Origin: Tyto alba
Lineage: Eukaryota > Chordata > Aves > Strigiformes > Tytonidae
DNA length: 64,000 bases
Assembly (NCBI RefSeq): GCF_018691265.1
Contig: NW_024881295.1
Location: forward strand, 22,248,243 to 22,312,242
Direction: 5' to 3'
The notes under the pieces were generated by a model, which was not told where the DNA came from, ran no database searches, and saw only the letters and a list, made by a program, of their open reading frames with translations. The position numbers were made by a program, and so were the translations under genes. This document shows, piece after piece, positions 24,826 to 63,784 of this stretch (positions are counted from its first letter, which is position 1; each line of letters starts with the position of its first letter).

Positions 24826-24942
24826 AAGCCGAACTTGATTTCCAAGCCAATGCTTGACAGCATCCTTTGTCTTCGTGATGACAGATGGAAGTATGTCCGG
24901 AGCCTCCTGACCCCAGCCTTCAGCGATACCAAACTGAAAGAG
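24826..24942 (+). CDS. TBXAS1: TBXAS1 coding exon (C-helix region), 117 bp, phase 0-0
   Basis: The exon follows an acceptor ending TTGACTTAG and is followed by the donor GTAAGG. It encodes 39 residues starting KPNLISKPMLDSI. The recalled human exon also has 39 residues, starting ASGLEFKSVADSV. The stretch CLRDDRWKYVRSLL contains the P450 C-helix WxxxR pattern, whose Trp and Arg contact a heme propionate. It is followed by TPAFSDTKLKE, matching human SAFSPEKLNE. I chose the start because it gives phase 0 and exactly the human exon length. A second AG two codons in is possible but would shorten the exon. Nothing is broken here. Confidence 0.93.
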
Positions 24943-32272: not shown

Positions 32273-32361
32273 ATGACACCGCTAATAAACCAGGCCTGTG
32301 ATGTCCTGCTGTGTAACTTGAAAGTCTATGCAGATTCTGGCAAAGCTTTTGATATCCAGAG
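32273..32361 (+). CDS. TBXAS1: TBXAS1 coding exon, 89 bp, phase 0-2
   Basis: The exon lies between the acceptor CCTTTCTAG and the donor GTATGT. It encodes [17 protein letters not shown] and then [12 protein letters not shown], plus the first two bases of an Arg codon completed by the next exon. Human TBXAS1 as I recall it reads MVPLISQACDLLLAHLK then RYAESGDAFDIQR. Both the exact 89-bp length and the split Arg codon are the pattern seen in CYP3-clan genes. This is the D-helix region before the E-helix. No defect is visible. Confidence 0.94.
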
Positions 32362-34835: not shown

Positions 34836-34984
34836 GTGTTACAACTGCTTTACCTTGGATGTCGTTGGCAGTGTAGCTTTTGGTACTGAAGTGGATTCTC
34901 AGAAGAATCCCGATGACCCCTTTGTTAAGAATTGCAGAACATTCTTTGAAATGTCTTTGTTTAAGCCTCTCCTCATTCTGATCC
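34836..34984 (+). CDS. TBXAS1: TBXAS1 coding exon, 149 bp, phase 2-1
   Basis: The first base completes the split Arg codon. The exon then encodes CYNCFTLDVVGSVAFGTEVD, SQKNPDDPFVKNCRTFFEMS and LFKPLLILI, ending one base into a Leu codon before the donor GTGAGT. Human TBXAS1 as recalled reads [20 protein letters not shown] and then ...PEDPFVKHCKRFFEF. The DVVxSVAFG segment is the conserved E-helix part of the CYP3/CYP5 clan. The length of 149 bp equals the corresponding CYP3A exon. No defect is visible. Confidence 0.95.
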
Positions 34985-36601
34985 GTGAGTATAGTCCACC
35001 CTTGTCCACTTCTTTATGGTAATTTTCTAAAAGTCATTATCAAATTGCAAAACATGTTGAAGCAGGAGCAGGAAGATGCATAACAGACTTCATTTCATTG
35101 GTGTTCAGAATGCAACCTACAGGCCAAGTATACCCTCAAGATTGCCACCATATGCTGTGCAGCTCCTGTCACCATTAATGCAAGTTCTTTTAGAAACTGG
35201 CAGTCTGTGGAGGCGATGCTCCAGATTGAGCTGAGTGGATTTTTTAATACACTTCTGCATTAAAACAGAGTAACTGCCCTTTGGAGCCTGAGAGTAAAGT
35301 TTTTGTGCACTTGGTTTGCCTGGTAGAGATTTAGTGGCTAATAACCCACTAAAGAAAAGAGGTGGAAGGGAGCATAAACAGGTAGTGTAAGTCCTCCAAA
35401 TTCTTATTGGAATAGCAGCACCAGACTAGTTGATGGCTATAGAGGGTAAAGACGATAAGTGCCAGCACAGGCTGCTATTAAGAGAATGCATTTGTTTTCA
35501 GGTGAATAGATAGGGAATGCAAGAATGGGGTATAAAGCCATTTAGTTCTAGGGCATGAAAGCTAAGGCTTCGTGGTGGTGGTGGCCTTGTCAGTGCAAGG
35601 CCATTAAGAATCGTAGCTGAGGAAGCCACAGCATAATCGAGGTCGTTGAGGTTTTAGCATCTTGTTATCTAGACCTGCACAGAGTAGTGTCACATGAACA
35701 CAGTGTCAGAGTTTCCTGTGCCCATCTGCTCCTGCTGGCATTACAGATTGCACCTGTACTAGCAGCACCTGAACTGTTCCCTTCTGGAGTTGTGTATCCA
35801 GAATGTCCTGGGGTTAATGGTTAACGTCTGATTGCGAAGTGTGATTTGTGACTAATTTCTGAAGGGACAGAAATGTGCCCCTGTATATCTAAGACCATGC
35901 CCTTCATTAAAGAAAGTTTCTGTGGGTTTTGGGACTGGATTCTTTGGCTAATCTCTTTCTGCTGGTAGATTATGCTGAATCTCCACATTGTGTTGCCCTG
36001 TTGGCGGCACAGGGGTTTTCTGATGACTGATTTGTTAGTCTTAAGCTGCTCATAAGTTAATGATGGATTTATTAAGATGCAAGACTTCACTCAGGTTTCT
36101 AATTCCTGACCATAAAGGCCGTGGCCTGGAGACCATCCTTGTGATAACATCCCACTTCCAGAGTCTGTAGCATCTGCAATAAATTTGCAAACCAATATCC
36201 TAATATTGGAGAACTATAAATGAGAATGACTGCTACACAGTTTCATGGATCAGCACCGTGAGCTGCTAGGCTAGTTCAAGATCCCCCACCTTCTGTGTGT
36301 AATTGAGTAGGCAGGGTAACTGATTCTCCCCTTTGTTGTGGTGGCTCTATGGCATCAAGAAGCTGAACCCAAATCCTGAGGCATTGTGGAAACAAGCTTG
36401 GAAGGCATCTGTCTGGCAGGGCAGCCGTGGCCAACATACAGTTTCTGGAAGGAAATCCTTTACCAGCCTATGGGGGTGGAAGGAAAAGAGGGAGAGGGAT
36501 AGAGAAAGAGGAAAACACAGGTTTCATGAAAGTAAATGCATCCCATGATGAGTTTTATAACATGTCTGATTCAGTGTTTTCTTCTTTAAAATCTTTTACA
36601 G
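34985..36601 (+). other. TBXAS1: TBXAS1 intron of about 1.6 kb
   Basis: The intron is bounded by GTGAGT and TCTTTTACAG. A purine-rich stretch of GGGAGAGGGATAGAG type lies near 36484-36515. I recognised no repeat family, RNA gene or coding segment in the rest. Confidence 0.88.
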
Positions 36602-36731
36602 TTTCTTTCCCATTCATAATGATCCCATTGCTCCGGATTTTGCCAAACAAGAAACAAAGGAACTGAATGGATTTTTTATCCAAACCATAAAAAATGCAAT
36701 TGTCTTCAGAGACCAGCAAGATGCAGCTGAG
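36602..36731 (+). CDS. TBXAS1: TBXAS1 coding exon (F-G to H region) with a one-base frameshift
   Basis: The acceptor TTTTACAG and the donor GTAAGG are both good. The incoming phase gives (L)SFPFIMIPLLRILPNKKQRN and then a stop codon at 36663-36665. One frame over, ELNGFFIQTIKNAIVFRDQQ followed by DAAE reads straight to the donor in the correct phase for the next exon. Human has PNK-NRD-ELNGFF. Here only eight bases, 36651-36658, separate the PNK and ELN codons instead of nine, so one base is missing in the A-rich run. The exon is 130 bp and not the expected 131. Both halves are otherwise well conserved, with no other stop or splice damage. Skipping this exon would not rescue the frame, because the flanking phases are 1 and 0. 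A sequencing or assembly indel in the A-rich tract, a recent null allele, or a true lineage frameshift are all possible. Confidence 0.9.
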
Positions 36732-57116: not shown

Positions 57117-57431
57117 AGGCGCAGAGATTTCCTTCAGTGGATGCTGGACTCCCGCGGCTCGGCTGCCTGCCCGGCAGCCGGGTGTTGTGGTGTGATCGGT
57201 CCATCGGCCGCCTCCCGGCAGGGCGCGGCGCCCCTCGCTGGCACGGCCCCACCCGGGAGGGTGCAGAAGACGTTAACAGAGGATGAGATAGCAGGCCAGG
57301 CTTTCCTGTTCCTGATCGCTGGCTATGAGACCACAACTAGCACGCTCTCCTTTGCCACGTACCTGCTAGCCACCAACCCAGAGTGCCAGGAGAAGGTGAT
57401 TCGGGAGGTTGATGACTTCTCAGCAAGACAC
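57117..57431 (+). CDS. TBXAS1: TBXAS1 coding exon (I-helix), 315 bp, phase 0-0
   Basis: The exon lies between the acceptor TTTCCGCAG and the donor GTGAGT and encodes exactly 105 residues. The recalled human exon also has 105. It starts RRRDFLQWMLDSRGS, matching human RRRDFLQMVLDARHS. A 40-residue Ala/Gly/Pro-rich linker with little human identity but the same length follows. Then come TLTEDEIAGQAFLFLIAGYE and TTTSTLSFATYLLATNPECQ, ending EKVIREVDDFSARH. AGYETT is the canonical P450 I-helix oxygen-activation motif. Human TBXAS1 has isoleucine in place of the first Thr. The linker DNA is very GC- and CpG-rich. The reading frame is intact within this exon, but it lies downstream of the frameshift in the preceding exon. 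Confidence 0.95.
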
Positions 57432-60929: not shown

Positions 60930-62543
60930 GTGGTGCAGAAACACGAGGTTAGGTGCTAGAAGTGGTGCAGAAACACGAGGTTAGGTGCTAGAAGTGGTGC
61001 AGAAACACGAGGTTCGGTGCTAGAAGTGGTGCAGAAACACGAGGTTAGGTGCTAGAAGTGGTGCAGAAACACGAGGTTAGGTGCTAGTAGTGCAGAAACA
61101 CGAGGTTAGGTGCTAGAAGTAGTGCAGAAACACGAGGTTCGGTGCTAGAAGTGGTGCAGAAACACGAGGTTAGGTGCTAGAAGTGGTGCAGAAACACGAG
61201 GTTAGGTGCTAGAAGTGGTGCAGAAACACGAGGTTCGGTGCTAGAAGTGGTGCAGAAACACGAGGTTTGGTGCTAGAAGTGGTGCAGAAACACGAGGTTA
61301 GGTGCTAGAAGTGGTGCAGAAACACGAGGTTAGGTGCTAGAAGTGGTGCAGAAACACGAGGTTAGGTGCTAGTAGTGCAGAAACACGAGGTTAGGTGCTA
61401 GAAGTAGTGCAGAAACACGAGGTTAGGTGCTAGAAGTGCAGAAACACGAGGTTCGGTGCTAGAAGTGGTGCAGAAACACGAGGTTCGGTGCTAGAAGTGG
61501 TGCAGAAACACGAGGTTAGGTGCTAGAAGTGGTGCAGAAACACAAGGTTTGGTGCTAGAAGTGGTGCAGAAACACGAGGTTCGGTGCTAGAAGTGGTGCA
61601 GAAACACGAGGTTCGGTGCTAGAAGTGGTGCAGAAACACGAGGTTCGGTGCTAGAAGTGGTGCAGAAACACGAGGTTTGGTGCTAGAAGTGGTGCAGAAA
61701 CACGAGGTTAGGTGCTAGAAGTGGTGCAGAAACACGAGGTTAGGTGCTAGAAGTGGTGCAGAAACACGAGGTTCGGTGCTAGAAGTGGTGCAGAAACACG
61801 AGGTTTGGTGCTAGAAGTGGTGCAGAAACACGAGGTTAGGTGCTAGAAGTGGTGCAGAAACACGAGGTTAGGTGCTAGAAGTGGTGCAGAAACACGAGGT
61901 TAGGTGCTAGTAGTGCAGAAACACGAGGTTAGGTGCTAGAAGTAGTGCAGAAACACGAGGTTAGGTGCTAGAAGTGCAGAAACACGAGGTTCGGTGCTAG
62001 AAGTGGTGCAGAAACACGAGGTTCGGTGCTAGAAGTGGTGCAGAAACACGAGGTTAGGTGCTAGAAGTGGTGCAGAAACACAAGGTTTGGTGCTAGAAGT
62101 GGTGCAGAAACACGAGGTTCGGTGCTAGAAGTGGTGCAGAAACACGAGGTTCGGTGCTAGAAGTGGTGCAGAAACACGAGGTTCGGTGCTAGAAGTGGTG
62201 CAGAAACACGAGGTTCGGTGCTAGAAGTGGTGCAGAAACACGAGGTTCGGTGCTAGAAGTGGTGCAGAAACACAAGGTTTGGTGCTAGAAGTGGTGCAGA
62301 AACACGAGGTTCGGTGCTAGAAGTGGTGCAGAAACACAAGGTTAGGTGCTAGAAGTGGTGCAGAAACACAAGGTTAGGTGCTAGAAGTGGTGCAGAAACA
62401 CGAGGTTCGGTGCTAGAAGTGGTGCAGAAACACGAGGTTCGGTGCTAGAAGTGGTGCAGAAACACGAGGTTAGGTGCTAGTAGTGCAGAAACACGAGGTT
62501 AGGTGCTAGAAGTGGTGCAGAAACACGAGGTTAGGTGCTAGAA
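60930..62543 (+). repeat. 32-bp minisatellite, 51 tandem copies, in a TBXAS1 intron
   Basis: The unit begins GTGGTGCAGAAACACG and continues AGGTTNGGTGCTAGAA. By hand count there are 51 copies: 45 of 32 bp and 6 of 29 bp, which lack three bases at the unit junction. This accounts for the 1614 bp exactly. The variable base N is A in 26 copies, C in 19 and T in 6. A second variant changes CACG to CACA in five copies. Copies 8-23 recur as part of an exact 537-bp duplication, 61141-61677 against 61679-62215. The + strand is G-rich, with 12 G and 4 C per A-type unit. Each copy carries the stop TAG and the unit is not a multiple of three, so it does not code. The variants suggest CpG decay plus unequal exchange. 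Confidence 0.98.
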
Positions 62544-63784
62544 GCGGTCCAGCCCCAGTGCTGTGTACTGCTGAGTTGTATTTTGCCAAGTTTGTCTCAG
62601 AGCTGTCTTGGGAGACCTCTCTGCCTCTCTCCACCACACTGCAGAGACGGCACTTCCAGGCAAGTGTCCTCAGAAAACAGCACCTGGATCGAGTCATGGG
62701 TTGTCACCTCTTTTTTTACCTCCAGGGCTTTCCTCATCTGTTCGCTAGAGGACATTTTAGGTCTTCTCTTGGCTGATAGCTCCGTGTGGAGGCTTGATGA
62801 TGTCTCTTTCTCTGGAAGTGTGGAGAGGCACCCGGCCTATTGCAGAGTCTGGCAAGCATGAGAAACCTCTGTCATTGGTTATTGTAGAGGTTATTGCCCT
62901 CCTCACCTCTGTCTGGATCTTTGGGGTGTAGGGGAAGGGAGTGCACAGCTTATCATGATCTCTGGGGAAGCAGAGAGACAGGGTAGGGAGTGGTGAGCAC
63001 TGTCACTGCACACTGCATCTTCCCGTCCTACCTGCGAATCCCTGATTCTGCTCCAACTGCACTGCGAAAGGCAGGTTTGAGCGTAATTCCTCTAGCAGAG
63101 GAACTGAAGTTAAAAAACTGTGGAGACTCTGACCTGGACATCTTTATGAATCCCTTGGGGCTAACATATGTGCCCTGTGAAGGGCCGTCCGCTGAAAATA
63201 AGATGCACCTATTTGCTGCAAGCTTGTTGCTGGGTGTGCAGCTTGCTTTGGTACCGTGAAGACAAAATAAACAAGATGAAAAGAGAGTTAAATATGAGCT
63301 AGTGGGGGCAGGACGCCTACATCTGTGTGTGTATAAAAGAATATTACTTTCTGCAGAGACCACAGATCTATTTCCAGGACAGCAGAGAGAGGCCAGATCT
63401 TCAGAAGGTTGTAAACTGGCACAACATGTTTAGTATTAGTTACAGGTATGACGATATGCATCAGCTGGGAAGCTAAGCCCGGTGTGTACCAGTAAAAGAG
63501 GACGGGGGAGGGGGGAAGGTGGCTATTTCGAGACCAGATTATTTTTATAGGGTTTGTGGCTAACCATCCCTAAACTGTCAGAGGCCATACAGTTGTGAAA
63601 AAGATGTTTTTATCCACATGAACCAGGTGAGAAGGAATTTTCCCATGGTCTTCAACGTCTCCATTTCAGTCAAAAATTATCCCTGTTAGGAGTTGTTACA
63701 GAGCCCTTCAGAAGACATGTATTTCTGAACAGGTTTTGCACTTGTGACTATTTTGTTGTAAAAGCAACTTGATTTTTATTTATT

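Follow-up and report, generated by a model that had tools for sequence, protein, structure and literature searches.

Thromboxane-A synthase, encoded by TBXAS1 (CYP5A1), has described bird representatives including those of Larus michahellis, Ciconia boyciana and Gallus gallus. Protein matches indicate that the gene studied here has the same exons in the same order; it also has the haem motif FGAGPRGCIG and the I-helix motif in common with them, and is 79.7–94.0% identical to 52 avian database rows. Unlike these relatives, it has one exon that is one base short and a GC-rich diverged loop in the exon at 57117–57431. Disabling variants of the same gene are described in human TBXAS1 deficiency (Ghosal haematodiaphyseal dysplasia; PMC12730773), there in patients and here in one assembly; the abstract of that article reports platelet dysfunction without bleeding, and it also states that heterozygous TBXAS1 variants can cause bleeding. 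No bird TBXAS1 null was met in the titles and abstract openings of the papers listed for bird TBXAS1, for avian thromboxane and thrombocytes, for TBXAS1 gene loss and for the human disease.

A second point of comparison comes from genome assembly. Passages of PMC8081667 document short consensus-calling indels as an error that creates frameshifts in long-read vertebrate assemblies, and describe hummingbird TLK1, with frameshifts in the unpolished primary sequence. The present case, like those, affects a coding exon through a short indel, the error being putative here. Our analysis suggests that the locus belongs to an avian TBXAS1 gene that is otherwise functional and that its one-base shortfall is most likely an assembly consensus error in a short A-rich stretch, a reading that we hold with slightly better than even confidence.

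Gene identity and exon map

The genome searched comprises 1.25 Gb in 70 contigs, and the window, meaning the whole stretch of 64,000 nucleotides that was analysed, corresponds to C35:22248243-22312242. Its + strand carries five TBXAS1 (CYP5A1) exons, all with AG/GT borders. The features are as follows, the basis for the four intact exons being tblastn and splice sites.

24826..24942 (+), TBXAS1 coding exon KPNLISKPMLDSIL...KLKE, 117 bp, intact
32273..32361 (+), TBXAS1 coding exon ending ...FDIQ, 89 bp, intact
34836..34984 (+), TBXAS1 coding exon CYNCFTLDVV...LLILI, 149 bp, intact, one base left over
36602..36731 (+), TBXAS1 frameshifted coding exon, 130 bp against 131 required
36652..36659 (+), eight bases, against three codons in the 120 relatives listed
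36664..36666 (+), early TGA stop met by the incoming frame
57117..57431 (+), TBXAS1 coding exon bearing the I-helix motif AGYETTTS, 315 bp, intact

A 32-bp tandem repeat (51 copies, 95% matches) lies between TBXAS1 exons at window 60930–62552. Within the last exon of the list, a GC-rich, Ala/Gly-rich loop (window 57160–57270) diverges from Larus and chicken more than its surroundings do.

A query made of the conceptual exons (267 residues, with X marking the break) retrieved 362 proteins, 120 of which were listed and aligned. The ten best matches were all from birds, nine named thromboxane-A synthase and one THAS synthase, each aligned over all 267 residues (100% of the query) at 89–91% identity. 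The I-helix, the haem motif and the C-terminus follow one another in order on one strand, as in the P450 TBXAS1 (CYP5A1), and the protein matches bear out an earlier identification of the locus as TBXAS1 of bird origin. In a TBXAS1 tree of the query and 29 of the 52 bird rows, the query fell in an unresolved fork, with Ciconia nearest by path. A PDB sequence search with the frameshifted exon alone gave no match, nor did Rfam at gathering thresholds.

One base is missing from a conserved exon

The exon at 36602–36731 is bordered by ttttacag and gtaaggct. A length of 131 bp is needed here, because the preceding exon (34836–34984) leaves one base and the following one (57117–57431) begins at a codon border. 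Splice borders, neighbouring phases and homology therefore agree with the earlier note, which had given the exon 130 bp where 131 are required. The codons for PNK end at 36651 and those for ELNGFF start at 36660, so that eight bases (36652–36659) intervene; the note had counted these eight bases correctly and had correctly reported a stop after them, with coordinates that need correction (36652–36659 instead of 36651–36658 for the gap and 36664–36666 instead of 36663–36665 for the stop). The conservation of PNK and ELNGFF claimed there holds as well, exactly three residues standing between the two motifs in 120 of the 120 relatives listed (362 found).

Among these listed relatives, the three residues are KQK in 69 of 70 bird rows and KQR in the remaining one, the 70 rows counted as birds including two without a source name and some isoforms of the same species. 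Database proteins may be corrected by annotation pipelines, so these rows do not display the DNA of each species. Three codons are nevertheless the ancestral state, since the count is the same in rows from crocodilians, turtles, lizards, amphibians and mammals. Chance is not in question, because the exon can be read up to the break and again beyond it. The one-base shortfall is a true feature of this sequence.

The other exons found are sound

By adding flanks of 70 kb on each side of the window (204 kb in all), we read the rest of TBXAS1. Twelve coding exons were recovered, with AG at 12 of 12 acceptors and GT at 11 of 11 donors, and 11 of the 12 are correct in length and phase. The series reaches the haem exon (FGAGPRGCIG), and the last exon stops with TAA, followed by AATAAAA; the N-terminal exon (about 33 residues) was not found within the 204 kb and presumably lies upstream of C35:22178243. 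The earlier statement that everything else about the gene is intact can thus be extended beyond the window to every coding exon found except the frameshifted one (11 of 12), the N-terminal exon not being among them, and the decay of other exons that had been proposed as a sign of pseudogenisation did not appear across the 12 exons read.

We then compared the conceptual protein with 52 rows taken as birds, a column counting as conserved when 95% or more of the remaining rows agreed. At 2 of the 338 columns so conserved among birds it carries a different residue (L to I and K to R), which places it at a tied 18th–21st of 53 rows by fraction, a rank that is a guide only, since annotation faults lower the score of some database rows and several rows are partial or second isoforms. 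By this sequence comparison, the TBXAS1 protein gives no sign of relaxed selection. With a neutral rate of about 2.5e-9 per site per year, a dead gene would on a rough estimate gain about two conserved-site changes per million years. Inactivation much more than a few million years ago is therefore unlikely, whereas a younger loss may fit.

These results bear most directly on the view that TBXAS1 is a fixed pseudogene in the species or its lineage, with thromboxane A2 synthesis lost. The premature stop lies upstream of both the I-helix and the haem ligand, as this view would have it, and no second copy appears to compensate: 301 bp around the exon gave one genomic match, the remaining matches of the five exons (4 of 9 rows) are weaker P450 matches on C42, and on these grounds a backup copy was not found in the assembly. 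Nor did the genome search find a second TBXAS1 copy or alternative haplotype with the other state. However, other disruptions are absent from the 12 exons read and conserved sites show no excess of changes (2 of 338). With 11 of 12 exons sound and constraint not relaxed, an old species-wide loss is unlikely, and we regard a fixed pseudogene as very improbable.

Possible rescue during expression

The base could be truly missing and the gene still work, either by –1 ribosomal frameshifting or by use of the AG at 36650–36651 as an acceptor. A –1 shift inside the gap would yield three residues and rejoin ELNGFF, but the local AAA CAA AGG is not a canonical slippery site, which has the form X XXY YYZ. 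As for splicing, we scanned the AGs from 36440 to 36659 (18 including the normal acceptor), and frame was restored without a stop only by the AG before 36652, that is, by one downstream acceptor with the exon starting at 36652. By eye, however, that acceptor has no good pyrimidine tract, and its use would remove the conserved SFPFIMIPLLRILPNK segment; among the 16 upstream AGs tested, four are in the right phase and all of these run into stops. Rescue by splicing thus appears improbable from the sequence, and we give the whole idea of a working gene without the base hardly any weight.

Predicted consequences

In the numbering of chicken TBXAS1, a protein of about 535 residues, PNK falls at 247, the I-helix motif at 344 and the haem motif at 474. 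If the frameshift is real, translation would read PNKKQRN and stop near residue 253 of about 535, before the I-helix and the haem cysteine. The protein would then be without its catalytic core, and nonsense-mediated decay of the transcript would be expected. The further step to abolished thromboxane A2 synthesis with an effect on clotting goes beyond the present data and would require homozygosity. Were the allele both real and common, the bird would be a natural thromboxane-synthesis knockout in an animal whose thrombocytes are nucleated, and would show to what extent haemostasis in birds depends on this signal. If the shortfall is instead an error, the locus is a gene-model trap, in which a frameshift in the reference makes a species seem to have lost TBXAS1.

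Consensus error or young null allele

The earlier note had framed the matter as a choice between an assembly indel and a very recent null, and our analysis supports that framing: on the sequence evidence, the options that remain are a consensus error and a very recent, probably unfixed null allele. An ordinary explanation for the TBXAS1 frameshift is most likely. Under a consensus error, one base would have been dropped at 36652–36659 by consensus calling, and the living bird would make the full-length enzyme that converts PGH2 to thromboxane A2. The frameshift stands alone among the 12 exons read, the protein is under ordinary constraint, and the exon region has a single match in the genome. 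Error is also favoured by the three residues that all 120 listed relatives have at the site and by the documented record of short consensus indels in long-read assemblies.

The sequence context is less favourable to an error. In the eight-base gap the longest run is three A, whereas two 6-base runs elsewhere in the same exon are both in frame, and the window contains 29 long homopolymers (at least 10 A/T or at least 8 C/G) across positions 2998–57905, the longest being 29 T. The absence of any run longer than three A from the gap, when the two 6-base runs stay in frame and the window holds a run of 29 T, counts against an error and keeps the reading as a real allele alive.

The sequenced bird might therefore carry a real, very young loss-of-function allele of TBXAS1, probably heterozygous or at low frequency. 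The indel lies outside any long homopolymer, the Lys-Gln-Lys of the relatives is encoded by A-rich codons, so that replication slippage is plausible, a haploid assembly displays one allele per heterozygous site, and unchanged constraint would be expected of so young an allele. Yet a lone indel looks identical to a consensus error, and we have a single assembly of one individual; we consider a young allele of this kind a serious possibility, clearly short of an even chance. A real allele of any frequency comes closer to even, fixation being the least likely part. A genuine null that is common or fixed in the population, leaving thrombocytes with little or no thromboxane A2, seems to us very unlikely.

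A further point on the side of a young allele is that the same assembly displays no clear excess of frameshifts in comparison families. No clear isolated frameshift was found by eye in connexins, claudins, sulfotransferases and the scored GPCRs, which together gave about 0.12 Mb of single-frame matches. For connexins, 65 of 65 candidates were scored and gave 23 rows: 17 are whole or nearly whole in one frame, one gene occupies two rows of one open frame, another spreads across two rows of different frames, and two rows are partial or weak. Of the claudin rows (62 of 62 candidates scored), 13 of 33 are complete in a single frame, as are 7 of 51 sulfotransferase rows (85 of 85); the partial rows of these two families resemble exons of multi-exon genes and were left out of the frameshift judgement. 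For GPCRs, 147 of 1169 candidates were scored, in a list that favours intact genes, and 150 of 151 rows were listed; counted by hand, 125 cover the domain in a single frame and the other 25 are partial, the partial rows including two with an internal stop and three split pairs, each in one frame. A sample of about 0.12 Mb is too small to rule out a rare error, even at a rate of one per some tens of kilobases.

The GPCR matches also included three pairs of segments about 99% identical, 134–187 kb apart on the same contig and each with a 7tm_1 match (L047/L048 on C14, L049/L050 on C2 and L051/L052 on C44). Over the longest aligned block of each pair (12.7 kb in total) we counted 91 substitutions and 16 gaps, the gaps lying by eye in homopolymers or short repeats, which counts against an error in the TBXAS1 gap. 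Such pairs could be unmerged haplotypes or young duplications, and unmerged haplotypes are the setting of the hummingbird TLK1 case in the passages of PMC8081667 cited above.

One connexin on C56 (L043, C56:11433092-11433605), the gene whose rows differ in frame, was considered as an isolated frameshift and rejected, as it carries two or more frame changes as well as a stop; in our judgement this connexin-like gene is probably an ordinary pseudogene.
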